A stretch of DNA of 64,000 bases from NCBI RefSeq assembly GCF_000003815.2, contig NC_049985.1:9290247-9354246 (forward strand), given 5' to 3'. The notes beneath the pieces were generated by a model. That model was not told the origin of the DNA and searched no databases. It saw nothing but the letters and a program-made list of their open reading frames with translations. The stretch comes from Branchiostoma floridae (lineage: Eukaryota; Chordata; Leptocardii; Amphioxiformes; Branchiostomatidae). Of this stretch, positions 7,201 to 57,339 are shown one piece after another (the first letter of the stretch is position 1; each line of letters begins with the position of its first letter). Made by a program: the position numbers and the translations under genes.

Positions 7201-10200
7201 CTGGTAACGCAGAGCCCCGGAAATCGGGCAAATTTCGACAACACAAAATGCCGTATATTTTTCTTTTGAAAGGGTTTTATGCCCGCCATGTACTTTAGAT
7301 TAAATGTGAATGTTCCACCGATGATAAATCTTTTCAATATAGCCCTCTACATGACGAAAATTCGCAGAAAATGACAATGTTTGAAAGGCCTTTCCTACCT
7401 ATCGCTCGCTCCGCTCGCTGGTCGCCTTCGGCGACCTTTTAGTGCTGGTCGCCTTTGGCGACCTTTTAGTGCTGGTCGCCTTCGGCGACCTTCGGGTGCC
7501 TTCGATCGGAACTCGCCGACGTTCGGCACCCGCTCGGGTGATCCCGAGTACATGTACTTCATTTAGAGCCATACTCGCAACATCATCCAGGCAGTATAAA
7601 AGCATGGAGATCCGACAACAATTCCTTGGCCTACCGCCTATGATTGGTGCTTAATACAGATCACGCTTTATCTAAGTGACCACTAATTGACTAAACATGT
7701 TTTCATGATTCTTGTGAGCAAAGCTCAAACATTTCCCTCCTTGTATGAATATCACATATATGACAAAATATCACATTTGTACAGATACAATGCAATATTC
7801 ACCCTCTGTAAACATGTGACAGCTGGGGATGTAATTTGCAGGATGATCTTTCACCATTATGAAGTCCCCAGGAACAGTTTCCATTTCCCAGCTACACACC
7901 AGCTTTCTTTGTTACCATTCCTTTCAACGCCAACCCTTAAACTTATCCACCATGTAATTAAGAAAGATGTTTAAGGTTACAAAGTCAGAGGTCAGAGACA
8001 TTTTGTCTGACCCCTGTTGACCTCTACTGAAGGTCGTGAAGAAGAGGAAAGTGGCTGTTTTTCATTTCCATAGGTCCATTATGGAAATCTATTATCTGCT
8101 ACATTTGCTCTGTTGGCAAGTACCTGAATTACTCTCCCATGGCTAAGTAGGTGGTTTGGCAGCCTGATAATTTGCTTTAACATCCTGAAGTAAATTAGAT
8201 TTTTACCTTAAGGCGTGAATTAGTTGTGATTGTTGAGCAGTTGAAAATTGAGAGATACTTGACATCACAACACACTAGATGCAAACCTAAAAAAGGTCCT
8301 TTTCAAAGCATACAAAAAATACACTATAGTATGATTCAAATGGATATATGGCATTACCATTATGAAATTTTAAAATCTTAAACAAACAATCATACTAATA
8401 GTTACAACTATAATATACTGCACAAAATTAGCAAATTGTTAAGTCATATAACAGTGGGTTTTGAGTTTTTATGGCCGAATACAATACTCTCATCAGAAAC
8501 TAGAAACCCTAAAATACCATGTGAGTGGAACCCTGTACTGCCTGGTAGGAGTCTATCCAGATTATCTCCAGGGAGATGATGTAATTATGTCAGGAACAGG
8601 AGGTAATGAAATACTTTGGCCCCCCACAGGGAATATGTTAACAGTAAACCACACAGGAAAAAGGAAACTCCTGAGAAAATAGATATATTTCTGATATGTC
8701 AGAACTTTTGCTGCTGGTACTGACAGATAATGACACAGAAATGGACACATTTGCATGTTAGTCATCTGCTTGGGTATCCTCTGATGGGACATTTTAGTAC
8801 TAGTATTTCATTACATCATGTTCATAGCGTCTCTGGCCCACAGATCAACCAAGTGTAGCCCTTCAGAGCAACAGACATTGTTTCCCGGTTACTTTTTCTT
8901 TGGGACATGCGGCTAACATAAAACGGTGACTGTGAGTGTCAGAAATCAACAAATAAACAACAATATTCAGATACCGACCAATATGCAATTGGAGTGAAAG
9001 GCTACTACAAATAAATGTTATGCTTATATATTATGGTACAAAATATTAGGATTATACATGTAACCAAAGAATATGTTTTTACCACTCTGGCCATCTGGCC
9101 AGTAACACTGGATGATAGTCCCTAGGGTTGCAAAGGGGGATATCCTGTTGTTACAGAATACAGTATACCTCCCCAGGCTAATCCTGAACCTTTGGGAAGT
9201 CCCCATCTTAAGTTCCTATGCTGTTGACCTCACCATTAAATACAACATCTCAGTTGGCAGCTGCCATAGTGAAACCTTACCTCAGCTGTTACCACTTTAG
9301 TGGGAAAAGTTCACCAGGGCACCATATGGGGTGGGGATGTAGTATTGTTGTTGTTGTTAGAATGATTTTCTAGAGCATGCTGCCATATAAGGCTATCTGA
9401 TGGAAGGGAGGATGTCTTTGCTGCCTCCTGGGCTCACCAGGTATAATCTCACTCCAAAGTTTGTTTTCCTTAGGATTTAAGTGAGGTCCAAACAACACTG
9501 CTGTCAGAAATGTTCAGGTTACAAGCCATCCTGTCTGGCAACATGGCAGGATTCTTGTTGCCATCAAATATAATACAATGTGCAACAACGAGATCCTGAT
9601 TTCAATGCATTTTATCTATCCCTACAACGCGGACCCTACAATGCATCAAGACTGATCGACATGTGATATTCACCTTCCCATTGTTAACCCATTGTGATTG
9701 TCAACACAAATTTGGTGGAAAACACTACCTCCACTGACTCATCACATCTGGTAAGATTGGAAATTGGAGTAATATTTATTGGTTCCTGTATTTGACTCAG
9801 TACTTTTCCTGTCTGTATCCTAGTATGATATACATGTACTGGCAGCATCTAATATACTGTAACACATGTTTCCATTAAGCCCGAGCCCAAGGGCAATGCC
9901 CTCACAGCCGGGAGTGGCTGAGTCAAGTTCACATCAAACATCCTGATTCCTGTGTCTCATCAGATACTACATCCTTGTTCGACCACACAGACATTGGGTA
10001 CTGTGCCAGTGGATATTCTGTTACTACTAGTACTAGTGCGCTATCAGAACTGTCAAGGACGTTCTTTTTTAACCTCCTTGGAACTGTTCAGTTTCTACTT
10101 TTCACTTGTGCTATCATATCATGATCATAAAATGGGTGCCAAAACGTAACGTTACAGGGGACAACACACAAAATGTCACCAGGTTGCAGGGTCAAGATCT

Positions 10201-23868: not shown

Positions 23869-26800
23869 TTACTTCTTCTGCCCAACCGCCATCTGTTCAG
23901 CAACAGCCACCCATCCTCTGATGACAGTCTCCACCTGGTGGACCCGGGTTTGAAGGTCACGACACAGCTGATTGGTCGGCTCACTCTCACAGTAAAAGTA
24001 TGTTGCCACGGCAACAGCAATGACTGACAACATGATGATGATGAGGGGAAGCTTGTAACAGTATGATCCTGCAAAACAACAATACGTTATACCACTTTCA
24101 GCATCATCCCCTTTTAATGATATCTTGCTACATGGTACATACATAGATGAATTCATATGTTAGGTTACTTGTATTGTTCTTTTGTGACTTTGGCACAACC
24201 TAAAATGCACAAACAGCGGCAAATTTCATATTTTTCCCACTGATATAAACTCAGTATAAACTCAGAATGTAATAAGCCTTGTTTCTTTTCATACAAAAGT
24301 AAGTATGTGCAGTGTACCTAAGTATGAACCATCATGCATGTGGAAGGAAGTGGAAAATCCACAAACCTGTAGTTCTGTGTTTTTCTGGAGTAGCTGAGGC
24401 AATCCCGTTTGCCTTTTCTTCTGTAACACAAGAAAGACAAGACCACTATTAGTCACAAAATGCACAACAAACTTTCTCAAGCTATTGTATTGAATGGATA
24501 CCCGGAAAAAAAAACACAACTGCCATTTCAGTTTGCACCAGAAGTTTCTATCAACTTCATTTGTTATTGTTGTTTAGCTTTAGTTATGTATATTATGTTT
24601 CATTATCATCTAGATTATGTAAATTACATTTTATCATTATTACAAAATGTATATAGTTTGTGAGGTTAAGCCACAAAAAGCCACATAGGCTTCTGCTCCC
24701 CCTTGCATGTTTTCTTTCCATTCTGTATCATCATTTGTTTTTAATTGTTGAATATGTGCTAATAAACAAAACAACAAACAAGCTTCCCTCCACCCACCGG
24801 TGTCAGCCTCCTCCTCCTGCCCCCCTCCCTCCTGTTGCTGCTTCCTGCTGGCCTGGCGCTCGGCGTACTCCCGTTTCCTCCTCTCCTTCTCCTCCTTCTT
24901 CTTCCTCCTGCGCAGCTCCTGCTCCTGCTCCTCCTGCAGCCGCCGGGCCTCCTCCAGCTCTGTGGGGAACAGCAATGTTGGGCCATAATTAGGCTGGATG
25001 CCAGACTCATATACCGGTAACATCAGAGAAAACTTTTCCTAATTGACTGCCATCTTCTACAAAAATTATGATTTTAAAACTATGATGCCAAACAATTTTT
25101 GAATACATGTAGTCCTGTTGGTCAGCTACAGTCTATATATAATACTGGTTACCATTCAAAATAATCCATCAGAATTAACATCTTATTCCATCTTTGCAAC
25201 TAAGGTTGAAATTGTATGAAAAAGCATATAAGGTTACTCCTTGTTTTGAAGATACATGTATTGTAAAATAAGAAACTAACTTCGCTGCTGCTGGAGCTGT
25301 TCTTGTCTCTTTCTTTCCAACTCTGAGTTAACTGCTCTCATATAACTCACCACCTGAAAATACAGAAAAAATACCAGATCAGCCTCATATTACATAAGTT
25401 TGTCATTCATATCAATAGAACCTGAGACAAAGTTAAGAAGTTGTATAAAGAGTAATGAAAGAAAGGACTTCAAACTAACCCCTTTGGCACAGTTTCTACA
25501 TTGTCTCTCATCCAGACAGTCCCCCACCACTGGTACCAGGGCAGAGTCTAGTGGATTGTCCTTCAGGTCCAACCACTGTAGACTGGTCAGCTGCCAGAAA
25601 CTGACCGGTACAGTCTTGAGACGGTTCTGGAAGAGGTCCAGATGTCTGAGCCTGGTCAGTCTGCCAAAGTCTGCAGGAAGTTCCTCCAGCTGGTTCTTAC
25701 TGAGGTCCAGCTTGATCACATGGGTAAGCTGGGTGCAGAAGGGATCCTGTAACAAACATTATTCAAGAGTAAAATATGTGTGGTTCTTGTTAACTTTATG
25801 AAAATGGAGGTATTGTTTTTTATACCATTATGTGTGCTTACAGTTCTTTGAATATTGCAGAGTGGTAGGATGTGAGGTGGAGAATGGTGTAACTAGAGAC
25901 AAGCAGGATGAGAAGGCTGGTTTGACTCAGGTTCAAAGTTGTGCAACAGGCTTGACCTGGTTCCAAAGTACCACAGGAAGGCAGGATCATTATGTATGAC
26001 ATCTTTGATTTCTTGTTTTGATATATTTTTTATTTCATGCAATCTTCTGAACCAGTATCCAAACCCATTATAGTTGTCGAGGGGACAAAGAGACTCAGCA
26101 GCCATAATAATTTTGTATTCCAGCTAAAAGTATAAAGCAAACATCTGACCATTGATGATATCTTGAGATGTCAGACAGTAAAAATTACTCACCTGTAGGT
26201 TGACCAGGAGATTACAGGACAGGTCTAACACTGTGGCCTTGGGGAGACTGGACTGTGGGCAAGATATAAAAAATAACATCATCCTACACAATGTGCTAGT
26301 ATCAACCAACGGGATATACATTTGTGTACGCTTCATAAAAAATATCTATAAGCCATATATTATTTAAATATTTATTAGCAATTGATTTTCAGTTAGTTTG
26401 TTTACACTTTTGTTTGGTGATCTTGAAGAGGATTTCTATTACATGACAACATGTGAGTACTATTATATTCCTATCATTGTAAGTCTGTCCTCACCAGCAG
26501 TTGCACAGGAACCTTAGTGATGTTGGACAGACTCAGGTCCAGCTCATTCCCCTCCAGACGGTCCTTCAGCTCCTTCAGGGTCCACTTTGTCTCACCTTTA
26601 CCTGGTGGGTGAGAAACACATTACTCCTTGGAGGAGGCTTCGTAGGCAAGAACAAATGACTTTTCTACTTCTCATCTGACTAGAATTACTCTTCTATGGT
26701 TCAGAAGGGCAGAAAAATGCATGTGCCGACCTTATACTATTATTACCAATACAAACTTGGTTCAGACAAGGACGTTATATCGTCCTTGGTTCAGACAAAG

Positions 26801-27413
26801 AAGAACAGACAACAACTGGGACGAGCAAATGACTCGATCATCTATTTCATGGTCAAAATCATGTAATATCATGCATGCAGTATATTGGGTAGTATATTTT
26901 AGTGATCAACATAATCTTTGAAGATTTTGTGTGTACGTTGCATCAAGGAGGTTATATTCAGAATAACCTCCTTGGTTGCATGTATTTTCTCTTCATAATT
27001 TATTCAAAATTATTGTGGCAGTTATGGCCAGGAAAATCAACTTCATATTCTTCTAACAGCACAATAAATTGGAAAAAGTGGACGGATAATCTACATGAAC
27101 ACGTAGAAAAGTGCTGCCGATAATTTAGCAATTTACGGTAGCGGTAAATCTTATTACCTATTACTGGTTAATATTGCATCACTGGGTGCAACAACCGTGC
27201 AACGTGTCACTATGTGAGGCGTCACGTTTCCAAGCATATAGAACACCGTTTTACTCATTATTCAACGACATAATATCATTTCGGGAATTTTAATGTTAAT
27301 ATTTACAGTATCGAATTCATCCATACGGATTACAGGCACCTTGATTTGAATGAAAAGCTAGTTATTTGCCGTTTAAAATTAAGAAATGAGAAACTTTACT
27401 CACCAGCTGCCAT
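23869..27413 (-). CDS. LRRC59: Leucine-rich repeat-containing protein 59
   Basis: Tail-anchored ER and nuclear-envelope protein associated with ribosomes and with nuclear import of FGF1. Eight exons on the minus strand: 27413-27404, 26601-26495, 26252-26193, 25746-25480, 25353-25281, 24959-24798, 24420-24367 and 24068-23869. Phases agree, giving 310 aa (human about 307). It starts [19 protein letters not shown], then LRRs at about residues 28-140 ([41 protein letters not shown]), the conserved cysteine cluster [13 protein letters not shown], and a long charged helix at about 149-230 (EERKRREYAERQ-type). A single membrane segment lies at about 250-268 ([18 protein letters not shown]), with a 42-residue lumenal tail. 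The exon at 24367 is a 54-nt in-frame linker without a match that I recognise. The gene shares its promoter region with PAM16. Identity is secure. Confidence 0.95.
26760..26795. mobile_element. Tiny palindromic element with 7-bp target-site duplication (copy 2)
   Basis: Element 26767-26788 (22 bp): arms CAAGGACG and CGTCCTTG around TTATAT. It is flanked by GTTCAGA on both sides (26760-26766 and 26789-26795). The element is identical base for base to the one at 57311. It lies in LRRC59 intron 1. Confidence 0.8.
26937..26981. mobile_element. Tiny palindromic element with 7-bp target-site duplication (copy 3)
   Basis: Element 26944-26974 (31 bp): arms CAAGGAGGTTAT and ATAACCTCCTTG around seven bases. 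It is flanked by GTTGCAT on both sides (26937-26943 and 26975-26981). It lies 155 bp from copy 2, in the same LRRC59 intron. Confidence 0.8.
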
Positions 27414-27519: not shown

Positions 27520-30176
27520 ATGGTGAGGTTATTTCTACCTTCAAGTGTATTCTATCGTTAAAGTACAGCACCAGTGTTCCGTAACATTTAGTGGTTATGT
27601 TATAGCACAAGAAATTTTCAGTAAACGCGCTCTAGCGGCTATAGCCCATGGCCATGTACAAACTGCCCTCCCACGTTTTTCGCACGCTGTGTTCATCACG
27701 TTTTTGTGTTGACCTCGTCCAAGAAACACCAAATTTCGGCACAACTGTGGTCCTCTTGTTCAGTTGGCGTAGCCTCAATTTGTTGACTTAGTGAGTCAAG
27801 GTTATTCAGGTCTAACGTTACTACAGAGATAGTTAGATAAGCACGTAACAAGTTATGACAAATTTTTTCAGGTGATGTAACAGGCTCGGTTTCGAGACGA
27901 CTCGGCACCTGAGACAACTCGGCCCTAGTCGGCAACATACTTACTCGGCACATAACTTTTATATTTTGCACTCGAAGAATGATAATCCTATCATTCCGGC
28001 AGCATAAGAAGTGAAATAAGAATGTACAAATCAATCTCACCCCACGAGGTAACGTTTTGGATACAAATTTTTAGGAGATCCCCAAAACATGTTGCGGGCC
28101 GCGCCGGCGACGCCATTTTTTAGTTGTTATATCGGCGTTCTTTCACGATGTCACTCTACTTCTCTTCTATATCACCGTGTTTGCAAGTTAGTACAAATGA
28201 AAATAGATGTAATAAGCAGTTCAATATATTTTGTTGGTCATAAATTACAACTGTTTGTAGGTTTCAAAAACGCGTTGAGATGACCGATCTGATATAGACA
28301 GAGCCTCGGCCGTTCAAAGTTAACGTACCTTGAAGTGACGTTCAGAGCCTCAAAATGTCCGTAAAATTGTGCCGACTGTATGACTTACAAGTTATTGCAT
28401 TGAGAGAAATGTTTTGCAGTTGCATTTCTCACAAACCTTCACAATTTTATGTCATATTCTTGGTGCCAAGTTTTCCCACTTGGCTAGGTGCCGAGTCGTC
28501 CCAGGTGCCGAGTTGTCCTGATACCGTCCATGAGTCATGACTATTGAGTCTATGTTGAACCAAGGAGGTCATATAAGGAGGTATTAACATGACCTCCTTG
28601 GTTGAACTACATTATTTGTCCCGGGTCTACAAAAAACTTAATGCATAACTATGATTATTAGGGATACTATTGATTCTCGTATTCGTCTAACCTATGTCTG
28701 TACTCTATAAGTAGCTCAGATCTGTTCTTGGCCACGGCCTGGCCACCCACGGGCAGTAACTCATAAGGCTATCACTCAGCAAGTCTGCATGATCCCCCTG
28801 ATCACAGCTCCTTTCTCTCCCCACACAGGCGAAGTACCTTGTGCAGGCAGTAGTGTTAGGAGCTCAGGTGGTGGGACGAGCCTTCAGTAAAGCCCTGAGA
28901 CAGGAGTTCCAGAGTAAGTCATTTCTTTCTTTCACATAATTTACTGGTAACCTGCTTAAGGTGTAACACACCAGTCTTGTACAGTTAGTACAAACTATGT
29001 AAGACTTGACTGTATGGTTTGACCATCTCACACCGTTGAAGATCCCTACCCCCTGTTTGATGTTAAGAGATCTTAAATGTGCTTGAGGTTTGGCTCTCCT
29101 CAAACATGGGGTCTCCAGCCTTGCATCCCGTCAGAGTGCACTTCCCGACTCAAAGCTCATTTTCACCCGAGTTACCTTTTCCAAGGACGAAACATGGGGG
29201 CCTAATGGGCATTTGAACTTCACTCAGAAAAAAACTTGGTCATAACCTTAAATGGGTTGTGGTAGCTCTAGCATGTATAACGTTATTATTATTGAATGTG
29301 ATTTAACCTGCTTGCTGACTTTATGTTGCCTGTTTTCCATCAGATGCTCAACGAGCCCAGCAAGCTGCGGGGGGAGGCAGACAGGGTGCCAAGAGAGCAG
29401 CCAGTGATAGCATGATGGGGATTTCTCTACAGGTAAGCTGATGTTCACTTAGGCAGGAGGCTCTTTTAACATGGCAGAATCTACATCATTTTGCAATTTC
29501 TGAGACTATAGATGCAGACTGCAGTGAAGTGAAGATAAACTGATACTGTGATAGATGAGAAGTGCTGGCTAGGATTTGTATTCCTTAGATAATCAAAATG
29601 TATTTTAACTATCTTTATTCCTTATACAGGAAGCGAAACAGATACTGAATGTTGACAAACTGGACAAAGAACTTGTTGAAAAGGTATGTAGTTAATAATT
29701 CTACAGTAAGACAAAACAATCTGAAATATTCATTTAGTCCATATCTCCACTGAATAGTAATGAAAATAGGCTGCAAGTTCATTCGATTCGAAAAACCAAA
29801 CTCAATACGTTGACGAATCATAATAAATACACATGTACCAGTAGTTTGACTGTTAAAGTGTCCTGTCTTTAGTTAAGAGTTTCAGCATTTACATGCCTTG
29901 ACTTGTTTTTTGCAGAACTACACGCACCTTTTTGATGTCAATGACAAGAAAAAGGGAGGATCATTCTACTTGCAATCAAAGGTAAAGTTGTCTTTTCAAA
30001 AATTAAACTGTCTTTTGCGATTGACACATGGTGCATTTCCAGAGAGAAATTCCATCAAAACAAAACCCTTTTTTTTGTTTTTCCAGGTGTATAGAGCAAA
30101 GGAGAGACTAGATGAAGAGCTGAGACAAGAAGAAGTCAAGTCGGAAAAGAAACAGAAAGAAGACTCTGCATCATGA
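27520..30176 (+). CDS. PAM16: Mitochondrial import motor subunit TIM16 (Pam16/Magmas)
   Basis: Inner-membrane J-like protein that pairs with Pam18/DNAJC19 and restrains its stimulation of mtHsp70 in the TIM23 import motor. Exons 27520-27522, 28829-28913, 29344-29432, 29630-29683, 29916-29981 and 30087-30176 give 128 aa (human 125). Exon 1 supplies only the ATG, followed at once by GTGAGG; exon 2 continues [16 protein letters not shown], the N-terminal hydrophobic segment. The J-like domain (about residues 58-115) contains [34 protein letters not shown] and AKERLDEEL. The HPD triad of true J proteins is replaced by DKK, as expected for Pam16. The C-terminus is charged. Divergent from LRRC59 and convergent with GLIS2. 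Identity is secure. Confidence 0.96.
27896..28517. mobile_element. Inverted-repeat element in PAM16 intron 1
   Basis: Arms 27896-27923 and 28490-28517 are reverse complements over 28 bases with three mismatches, built from a doubled GCCGAGTTGTC module. About 570 bp lie between them. The left arm is followed by further CTCGGC/AGTCGGC half modules. This fits a non-autonomous DNA transposon with sub-repeated termini; no transposase is visible. Confidence 0.6.
28554..28607. mobile_element. Tiny palindromic element with 7-bp target-site duplication (copy 4)
   Basis: Element 28561-28600 (40 bp): arms CAAGGAGGTCAT and ATGACCTCCTTG, with an extra AAGGAGGT in the centre. It is flanked by GTTGAAC on both sides (28554-28560 and 28601-28607). 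It lies in PAM16 intron 1, 37 bp beyond the inverted-repeat element ending at 28517. Confidence 0.8.
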
Positions 30177-34078: not shown

Positions 34079-37000
34079 TCAAGACTCCACTTCTTTTGGT
34101 CCCATCAAGTGTTCATCTGCGTGTCGTGAGGTACCGTCTGTCGACAAGTCCTGCACCTCAGAGTCCAGTTCGTTACTGGAGGCGATCAGTGACTGGTCCA
34201 GCTCATGGCCCTCCGAGCTCACCCCCTTGGTGGGGGACTCCAGAGGTGGGAGAGAGTTGGAGGTGGTCACCACACTGTCCGTAGTGGCACTCAGGTGAGC
34301 AAGCACACCTGACGTTACTGTGGACGACAGGAAAGGGTTGGATTTACTCAGAATGGGCGACAGGCCGATGGGTGTGGTTGGGGACGCCACGACGCCGATG
34401 TAAGTTGGTGTAGCAATGTAAGTGTGGCCATGGTTGGGGAGATGTGAGATACTGCTCAAGTCTAGAGGGCTGGGACAGATGACCGTGGGGCTGACCACGG
34501 TCACCAGGGTAGCCTGTTGATCCGGCCCTGTAGAGGAAGCAATGACAAATTCCTGGGCACCGGGAATGGTGAGGTCGGCCTGCGAGCTACCGTCGTTCGG
34601 GGAGGAGTCCCCGTCCCCATCAGATGTATCCCCGCTCTGCTCCGCAGCCAGTTTTTTCTCCAGCTCCTGTCGTTTCTGCTCCTGTCGAGCCTGCTGCAGC
34701 TCCTGCTGCTTCCTGAGCCACGCCTCCTGCTGGTCCTGGTTCACGTAGTGTCCGTGGGACTTGATGTGCTTTCTGAGCGAGCTGGGGTCTGTGTATCTCT
34801 TGTTGCAGCCAGCCATCTTGCAGTAGTAAGGCTTCTCTACATAGTGAGTCCTCGTGTGCTTGAAACGGTCGCTGGAATTGGAGTATCGCTTGTTGCAACC
34901 TTCCACAGGGCACACATATGGTTTCTCTCCTGGAAAACATTAATGGGGCACAAGAGTGTACTTTTATTACTCTCACATTATTCTTGGGTTCTTGTGTCAT
35001 AGTATATGGACAACTAAATAGACAACTTGGCTCATCAACTATTTGGAAAAATAAAACTCTGCAATCTTTGACAGGTACAATGCAAATGTAGTTCGTCCAT
35101 CAATCAATGAAGACCACTTTATCTCCAATGTCATCCATCATTCAGCTTGTCATATGAGTCCACTGGTGGCTGTACATCCCCCCTACTTTCGCTTTCAAAA
35201 TGCCAATTACACAAAAGTAGAGCAATGTTCGATGGAGCGTTGGCTGCATTCGACAACACATGCTTGTGTCTGAATAAACTAGGAATAGATGGTTATACAC
35301 ACCTGTATGTGACCTGTTGTGAATCTTGAGGTTCTCCAGCCTTGAGAAGCACTTGTTACATCTGGGACATCTGTGTGGCTTTTCATTTGTGTGGGTTCGT
35401 ACATGGATCAACATCTTATACCTGCAAGAATAAGTAAAAAAAATCAGGATGTCTCCTCTCCTATCCGATAATATATCATATCATATCATATCATATCATA
35501 TCATATCATATCATATCACAAAGTCTGCATTTTCCCACTTGACTGCATTGAAGAATACTAGTACAGAATCTTTGACAAATATTACATTATAACACAAATA
35601 AAATAGACAGTACAGAAGGTGGTGTACTCTTTTGAATGCATTCCAAAACTCACTCATTTAGTATACATTAAGTATGGCTTAGGGACTTCCTACATGTTGC
35701 CCTTGAAATACTGAAAATAGCTTTCATATATTCAAGTGATGCAGTGTTACACAATTATAAAACTGAGCCTGTTCTGTGTCCCACCTTGCATTGAATCCCT
35801 TCCCTCTGCGAGCACAGCCCTCCCACCGGCAGCAGTACTCCACTTCCTTCTCAGGACGGATGTGAAGGTCATTCACATGGTTCACAAGGTCATCCAGTCG
35901 CTTAAATTTCTTCCCACACTTAGAAAAAAACAGGGACAGACAAGATTGGTACATGATACAGATTGTACAAAATTGCTCCTATGTAGCACTGTGTTGCCTG
36001 TGACAACATACAACAGGATTTTGTAAAAGTGCAAGACACATGGGACTGCAAGAGTCAAAGACACTAAGGACTATCATCATGAAGGCATTTGCAACTAGAT
36101 CAACTGTTGTACATGCTTTAGTTGGCAGGGCGGTACAGTAGCAAATTTGCAGTATTGTGGTTTATCTTATAATCATTTTACACTTTTCTTCTAAAAGATG
36201 ACATGATTTTCAGACCATCAGTCGTCATAGTGGACAACTCAACTAGCTTATTAACACTCCAGACAAAATATTTGGAAAGAGAAAGAATGACATACTATAT
36301 ACAAACACCACAGTAGGATACCATGCATGCAGAGGAAGCTTACAGTAGATTTAACCTTCTGCCACTTGCACTCAAACTCATCCTGCAGGGTGTTGCTAAG
36401 CAGGGCCCCGCCCGGTGACGTCACGTCCACCATGGTGTCCCCTGTCAGGAGGTAGGCAGGGATGGTTTGGGAGACGTGGGACACCGCTTGTTTGATGGTG
36501 GCATGCACGCTGTCATCGTGAGAAGTAGAAAACTGTGGAAATAGCAAATACCAAAATCATGTGCTTGTTTCATAGTTAACTGCAAATCAAACAAGCTACA
36601 ATTGACCTAAAGTTTTCAACCTTCTTATAGGTATTGCCAATGTACATTATCAGCCCTGAGAGGGGTATCAAATTACATGATAAGATTGAATACTTCAAGT
36701 TTTCATAGTCCTAATCAAACAACAAGGTAATACAAGTTTAAGCAGCCTTATTCTAAAAATAGGTTACACCAAACAATGGCTGTTACCAAAATAAGTAAAC
36801 TTCTAGGTACTCTATAACCAAAATTTTAATAATTGATGCAGTTGCAACAGACCACAAACAGAATAACCTCATTTCATTTAGACTACAAGCAAGAAAGAAA
36901 TAAAATTAGTCTTTTATACTGCAGAACCAATTTTGTAGCCTATGTGAAGTTTGTTTGATTCTGGAAATTCTGGAAAACAGCTGAACCCATGAAAACAACC

Positions 37001-40760: not shown

Positions 40761-40806
40761 GTCCTGTCAGGGAGGTTGAATTCTTTTTCAACCTCCTTGG
40801 TCCTGT
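40761..40806. mobile_element. Tiny palindromic element with 7-bp target-site duplication (copy 5)
   Basis: Element 40768-40799 (32 bp): left arm CAGGGAGGTTGAA (one mismatch) and right arm TTCAACCTCCTTG. It is flanked by GTCCTGT on both sides (40761-40767 and 40800-40806). It lies in the GLIS2 upstream region. Confidence 0.8.
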
Positions 40807-45767: not shown

Positions 45768-45819
45768 TTGAACCCAAGGAGGTTGAAAAGGGTCCCCTTT
45801 TCAACCTCCTTGTTGAAAC
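45768..45819. mobile_element. Tiny palindromic element (copy 6, imperfect target repeat)
   Basis: Element 45775-45812 (38 bp): arms CAAGGAGGTTGAAAAGGG and CCCCTTTTCAACCTCCTTG, nearly fully self-complementary. Flanks TTGAACC and TTGAAAC match at six of seven bases. Confidence 0.65.
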
Positions 45820-57303: not shown

Positions 57304-57339
57304 GTGTTACCAAGGACGTTATATCGTCCTTGGTGTTAC
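57304..57339. mobile_element. Tiny palindromic element with 7-bp target-site duplication (copy 7)
   Basis: Element 57311-57332 (22 bp): arms CAAGGACG and CGTCCTTG around TTATAT, identical to copy 2. It is flanked by GTGTTAC on both sides (57304-57310 and 57333-57339). It lies between TFAP4 and the methyltransferase. Confidence 0.8.

Follow-up and report, generated by a model that had tools for sequence, protein, structure and literature searches.

What are the short palindromes that recur in the genome of the amphioxus Branchiostoma floridae? The stretch of DNA analysed here as a whole (the window; 64,000 bp, C7:9290247-9354246 in an assembly of 513 Mb) holds seven of them, which a sequence-only reading had located and proposed to be minimal transposition substrates, hairpin-type excision remnants or a new class of nano-element. 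The coordinates were correct for all seven, and so was the description of their flanks: six palindromes lie between perfect 7-bp direct repeats, and the flanks of the seventh, at 45775, match at 6 of 7 bases (Table 1). We consider it very probable that these palindromes are end-joining scars of excised transposons of the P superfamily, in which two stubs of the terminal inverted repeat (TIR) would have been joined between the copies of the target-site duplication (TSD). Among the three proposals, that of an excision remnant is strongly supported, with end-joining stub scars fitting in place of a hairpin-type product; the nano-element and the minimal substrate did not hold up.

Could such an arrangement arise by chance? 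Scanning the window for inverted repeats of 14-60 bp with 8-bp arms, at most one mismatch and exact flanking 7-mers returned exactly the six perfect palindromes, whereas 100 first-order Markov sequences gave 0.19 on average and never more than 1. Together with the mismatched-pair controls of two genome samples, which the observed flanks far exceed (see below), this rules out chance palindromes and bears out the earlier judgement that chance matching is negligible. Neither an Rfam nor a tRNA scan of the window returned a hit. Elsewhere in it, at 35476-35510, short TCATA tandem repeats imitate duplication-flanked palindromes in 6- and 8-base scans.

Table 1. Probable excision scars in the window, and P elements located elsewhere in the assembly
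Feature	Position	Strand	TSD or flanks	Description
Probable scar	10047..10087	.	GAACTGT on both sides	27-bp putative stub join at 10054-10080; both arms present at other loci (10 + 18 >= 27)
Probable scar	26760..26795	.	GTTCAGA on both sides	22-bp putative stub join at 26767-26788
Probable scar	26937..26981	.	GTTGCAT on both sides	31-bp putative stub join at 26944-26974; arms of 22 and 12 nt common to other loci
Probable scar	28554..28607	.	GTTGAAC on both sides	40-bp element at 28561-28600; only 9 nt of arms common to other loci
Probable scar	40761..40806	.	GTCCTGT on both sides	32 bp at 40768-40799; one-base variant of the L120 element
Probable scar, near-perfect	45768..45819	.	TTGAACC / TTGAAAC	38-bp element at 45775-45812 with 18-bp arms; 16 nt of arms common to L139
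Probable scar	57304..57339	.	GTGTTAC on both sides	22-bp putative stub join at 57311-57332
E1	C19:10308832-10317273		CTCTAAC	8,442 bp; perfect 31-bp TIR CAAGGAGCTTTTATCAGG...
E2	C11:17071456-17080139		AAGTCAT	8,684 bp; perfect 38-bp TIR CAAGGAGGTTGAATAAGGG...

A genome-wide family with an insertion signature

Exact matches to the pattern CAAGGASGTTN{0,30}AACSTCCTTG (pattern 1) occur at 1,963 places on each strand, these being the same palindromes read twice, and the reversed control gave none. A second pattern, built on the related end CAAGGAGCTTTT (the E1 type, named after the element E1 in Table 1), matched at 377 places, again with no match in its control, so that the genome holds at least 2,340 palindrome places (1,963 + 377). 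To what extent do these share the 7-bp flanks? Fifty listed pattern 1 places, all on C1, were fetched blind to their flanks, and removal of two repeated-flank copies left 48. Thirty of these have perfect 7-bp flanks, 12 match at 6/7, one at 5/7, two at 4/7 and three at 0-1/7 (at least 6/7 in 42/48), compared with perfect agreement in 2/2,256 mismatched left/right pairs. For the E1 type, 50 of the 377 places (C1 and C2) were listed and flanks were fetched blind for 40: 31 are perfect, eight match at 6/7 and one at 5/7 (at least 6/7 in 39/40), with 4/1,560 mismatched pairs perfect. Two copies in this sample share their flanks; with one of them dropped, the count becomes 30/39 against 2/1,482. 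The genome-wide search that the sequence-only reading had suggested thus finds 7-bp direct flanks strongly enriched in both samples.

The length of the duplication is 7 bp, since among the first 40 copies exact flanking 7-mers were found 23 times, 8-mers twice, and 5- and 6-mers not at all. In prokaryote and viral contigs, pattern 1 matched 100 times in 100 loci, 99 with full flanks, yielding no perfect 7-mer and 5/7 at best; a bacterial or viral origin of the motif was rejected on this ground. Presumably, the AAGGAGGT core represents ribosome-binding sites or terminators in those contigs. Between the two target copies of the E1-type sample, 10/280 positions differ. This low divergence is near the within-species diversity of amphioxus, and many scars should therefore be young and polymorphic.

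All six perfect TSDs in the window begin with G, as had been pointed out. This is no general rule, given that 12/30 perfect blind cases start with G, and it reflects a symmetric target motif, T-NN-GTNNNAC-NN-A, which we derived from 30 perfect sites, the C1 sample contributing 23. In the C1 sample, which overlaps the sites used for derivation, the motif TNNGTNNNACNNA is matched at 105/180 positions in register and at no more than 69 in 10 other registers. The separate E1-type sample gave 120/186 positions in register versus at most 77 in 8 other registers.

This motif fits the P group. The 1360 element of Drosophila, a member of the P superfamily, has a 7-bp TSD with the motif GTTNAAC (PMC3276498), Galileo a TSD of mostly 7 bp with GTANTAC / GTATTAC (PMC4168063), and the P element itself an 8-bp duplication with GTCCGGAC (PMC3276498). 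The amphioxus sites thus resemble 1360 and Galileo in combining 7-bp duplications with a palindromic GT...AC motif; the outer base at -3 differs, being T in amphioxus and A (ANAGT / AANGT) in PMC4168063. Might another superfamily with a GT...AC target motif, such as hAT, have left these sites? The target motif of hobo, GTNCGNAC, does resemble GTNNNAC, yet hobo, a hAT element, makes an 8-bp duplication (PMC3276498), whereas that of the palindromes is 7 bp (exact 7-mers at 23/40 copies and 8-mers at 2/40), and the elements with these ends encode P-type transposases, which contradicts this origin for the E1 subtype. We rejected the hAT class on the duplication length and give an origin from another superfamily practically no credence.

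Two P elements with CAAGG ends

Is there an element from which the palindromes could derive? A six-frame search of the genome for the RNase H domain of P transposase (PF21787), with 10 candidates scored, gave three matches, and both element ends were found around two of them, E1 and E2. Their termini read CAAGGAG(C/G)TT, and each is bracketed by a perfect 7-bp duplication. An element of larger size with CAAGG...CCTTG ends, for which the sequence-only reading had proposed to look, does exist. The duplications of E1 and E2 themselves match GTNNNAC only in part, the motif coming from the scars.

The predicted transposase of E1 (P0241) matches PF21787 (E 1e-21), the GTP-binding insertion PF21788 (4.2e-15) and PF21789 (4e-7), with PF21787 and PF21789 being the TNP-like RNaseH N and C domains. 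The exons of E2 match PF21787 (6.5e-21) and PF21789 (3.3e-7). Judged from its P-type transposase and 7-bp duplication, each of the two elements belongs to the P superfamily. For the E1 transposase exon, no PDB match was obtained at E <= 0.1, a DNA search with L149:183-682 (inside E2) returned only the self-match, and an assembly exon is 100% identical over 92% of length to B. floridae LOC118406544. The top protein match for a NIPA2-like exon is likewise from B. floridae, at 92%.

Several further features of these elements deserve mention. At the N-terminus of the transposase, the RAG1 importin-binding region PF12560 is matched in the E1 protein (E 1.2e-7; L148:3192-7473) and in an E2 exon (7e-10; L149:2288-7009), and the PDB chain 21wb_A (V(D)J recombination-activating protein 1) matches E1 at E 4e-4. 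Both elements carry a second, convergent gene (L148:8174-9262 on the minus strand, L149:543-1598 on the plus strand), whose products are 53% identical to each other and have no Pfam match at E <= 0.05. Within E1, the initial 12 bases of the TIR (L148:1833) recur directly at 2505 (672 bp inside, 92%) and at 2643 (810 bp, 100%); these copies are possibly subterminal transposase sites.

Palindromes as probable joins of TIR stubs

If the palindromes descend from such elements, their sequence should be explicable from the TIR. We therefore wrote each of the 50 listed E1-type palindromes as a prefix of the E1 TIR followed by the inverse of another prefix. Exact two-prefix joins account for 30/50, with an overlap of 0 nt in 14, 1 nt in 11 and 2 nt in five. 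The 100 stubs measure 12-19 nt with a mode of 16-17, and none reaches 20 nt; the lower limit of 12 was set by the pattern, which allowed stubs of up to 37 nt, and E1 itself has a perfect repeat over 31. From this cap, established for the E1 subtype only, we infer that the amphioxus transposase would cut near 17-18 nt inside the repeat. Among the 40 E1-type palindromes with flanks, 25 are exact joins, versus a mean of 1.8 and a maximum of 5 in 1,000 shuffles of the centre.

Alternatively, the palindromes might be internal-deletion derivatives, in which the middle of an element was lost through replication slippage or interrupted gap repair and its short ends stayed behind. This would likewise produce target-flanked terminal repeats with variable joins, and interrupted repair synthesis after P excision is on record (PMC2895639). 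It predicts, however, ends longer than 19 nt, which occur in 0/100 E1-type ends even though both the pattern and the perfect E1 repeat left room for them. We hold this to be a very slim prospect.

The palindromes of pattern 1 show a comparable combinatorial structure. Different loci have one arm in common, with some pairs sharing 16-23 nt, and the other arm differs; 46/48 are no longer than 40 bp. The two longer ones, of 43 and 46 bp, hold direct copies of the adjacent flank, of 11 bases (L101:1501-1543) and 9 bases (L160, C1:6076960-6077005), as expected of templated end-joining insertions. Flank-copied filler occurs in L101, L160 and L133. Further subtypes are CAAGGAGGTTAAAGAATCACT and CAAGGACGTT. 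Within the window, arms known from other loci cover the palindromes at 10054, 26767, 26944 and 57311 in full; those at 28561 and 45775 are not covered. The one at 26767 has a 15-nt left arm in common with L124 and an 8-nt right arm in common with L157, and its 22-mer is identical to that at 57311, at a different target duplication. The centre of the 28561-28600 element repeats AAGGAGGT, possibly as templated filler.

Could the 20-40-bp palindromes themselves be mobile, as nano-elements moved in trans by the P transposase? Nearly every copy has a target duplication, and some identical sequences sit at different targets (8 different 7-mers for the commonest E1-type sequence, and the pair at 26767 and 57311). 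Most sequences are unique, though, with 41 distinct among 48 pattern 1 loci and 30 among 50 E1-type palindromes, and the 30/50 exact E1-type joins draw on variable lengths of the parent repeat, no stub exceeding 19 nt. Moreover, some palindromes contain copies of their own flanking DNA, and independent excision events in fly assays have given identical joins, a single table reporting one AT join 14 times and AT/TA joins being recurrent (PMC2895639). P elements also have internal transposase-binding sites (PMC7776569), for which a 22-bp duplex would leave no room. We regard mobile nano-elements as highly improbable. A minimal transposition substrate found no support on the same kind of evidence, most E1-type palindromes being variable-length stub joins with a limit of ~17-19 nt, some with filler, and mostly locus-unique.

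Excision and end joining as a candidate origin

How would a transposon give rise to such a palindrome? In the mechanism we propose, a P-superfamily element would insert, creating the 7-bp target duplication, and would later leave, driven by its transposase. At the boundary, the transposase would release the element's 3' ends, and it would cut the other strand ~17-18 nt inside the TIR, so that each flank of the break would retain a single-stranded TIR stub. End joining would then anneal or fill the stubs, often with an overlap of 0-2 nt, and in some cases filler, short or templated, would be added. As the two stubs come from one TIR in opposite orientations, the product would be a 20-40-bp palindrome between the target copies; for E1, excision would be expected to yield junctions like CAAGGAGCTTTTATC/TGATAAAAGCTCCTTG. 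Recurrence of a favoured join would explain why identical palindromes lie at different targets, as at 26767/57311 and for the commonest E1-type sequence. The subtypes in the window would share this origin.

P-element excision scars are known from experiments in flies. The P transposase makes a staggered cut, at the element boundary for the 3' ends and 17 nt into the 31-bp repeat for the other strand (PMC7776569), and after excision 17-nt tails are kept on the donor flanks (PMC2895639). A repaired site in that work reads target copy, CATGATGAAATAACA(TA)TGTTATTTCATCATG, target copy, and short overlaps and small or templated insertions are described as well. The amphioxus palindromes have the anatomy of this stub-keeping class of fly junction: target copy, stub, microhomology or filler, inverted stub and target copy, with recurrent joins (PMC2895639). 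The fly tables also contain stub-removing joins (PMC2895639), which the palindrome patterns used here cannot detect. The two systems differ in that the fly junctions have stubs of at most 17 nt and an 8-bp duplication and come from one engineered locus in repair mutants (PMC2895639), whereas those of amphioxus have a 7-bp duplication, natural chordate loci, several TIR subtypes and some stubs of perhaps 18-20 nt.

Like miniature inverted-repeat transposable elements (MITEs), for instance the P-MITEs of Anopheles (PMC1562414), the palindromes are short, non-coding and numerous, with terminal inverted repeats and target duplications. The Anopheles families, however, have a consensus with a central region (PMC1562414), whereas the amphioxus palindromes are combinatorial joins in which a centre is small or missing. 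We rejected a MITE family, with its homogeneous copies and conserved interior, in view of 41 distinct sequences among 48.

A number of observations weigh against an origin as excision scars. No locus was seen in both the filled and the scar state, and no parents turned up for the window subtypes (among them CAAGGACGTTATATC and CAAGGAGGTTATATTC). A scan of 264 kb around palindromes (8,447 bases N) found no element longer than 70 bp that combines CAAGG-like ends with a perfect 7-bp duplication, so that detected parents are few beside the scars; the CAAGG pairs of more than 70 bp listed in that scan have flanks agreeing at 6 of 7 bases and resemble chance matches or another repeat. The E1-type decomposition leaves 20/50 palindromes that require filler or a variant repeat, and permutation of the inner repeat, with a mean of 1.3 joins, reaches a maximum of 25, equal to the observed number; the permutations with 25 joins presumably leave the few stub-used bases unchanged. 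Recurrent arms reach 20-23 nt in some CAAGGASGTT subtypes, longer than 17, which leaves room for a slightly longer stagger or for recurrent filler there. Identical sequences lie at different targets, up to 8 of 50 in the E1 type, and a mobile unit would give the same. Matches of at least 9 nt between a centre and its own flank occur in 4/48 versus 0.45 expected, a modest excess that includes one tandem duplication. Lastly, a THAP domain was not detected in the E1 transposase at E <= 0.001. This domain has been described for P and Galileo, and its absence from the matches, along with the CAAGGAG(C/G)TT termini, sets the amphioxus elements apart from 1360 and Galileo; it would lower the case for close kinship to P and Galileo, not that for placement in the superfamily.

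Two side observations concern repeated DNA. Another repeat, with long inverted ends (AGTTACTCAAGCAACT...), is found at L112:2706-2868 and L121:7564-7703 (~130-160 bp), with one end near L101 1441. At L126 (C1:5574622-5574715), a second near-identical copy follows directly after the scar, as though a tandem duplication had included the scar together with one target copy.

Implications

Excision scars of this kind would be a known product of a known mechanism. New in this analysis are a probable natural archive of such events in a chordate, for one subtype together with its source element, and a P element with two genes, whose transposase is RAG1-like at the N-terminus. Among the titles and abstract openings listed in a literature search, none described scars of this kind in amphioxus. 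For the origin of the RAG1 N-terminus, a mobile N-RAG-TP of Aplysia has been put forward (PMC8355894), and the RAG1-like N-terminus of the E1 and E2 transposases may bear on the same question.

With some reservation, we lean towards a broader reading, in which the genome is a readable archive of thousands of germline P excisions. Excision would have outrun replacement, scars far outnumbering intact elements, and both the position of the cut and the end-joining spectrum of a chordate germline could be read from an assembly alone. The source would be a two-gene P transposon whose transposase is RAG1-like at the N-terminus, which makes it a candidate relative of the element from which that part of RAG1 came. 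Thousands of natural candidate scars would amount to a large sample of double-strand-break repair events with a known substrate, offer a cut-site readout for an uncharacterised transposase, and mark how often cut-and-paste elements leave. Beyond amphioxus, duplication-flanked short palindromes in other genomes may share such a scar origin instead of being tiny transposons.

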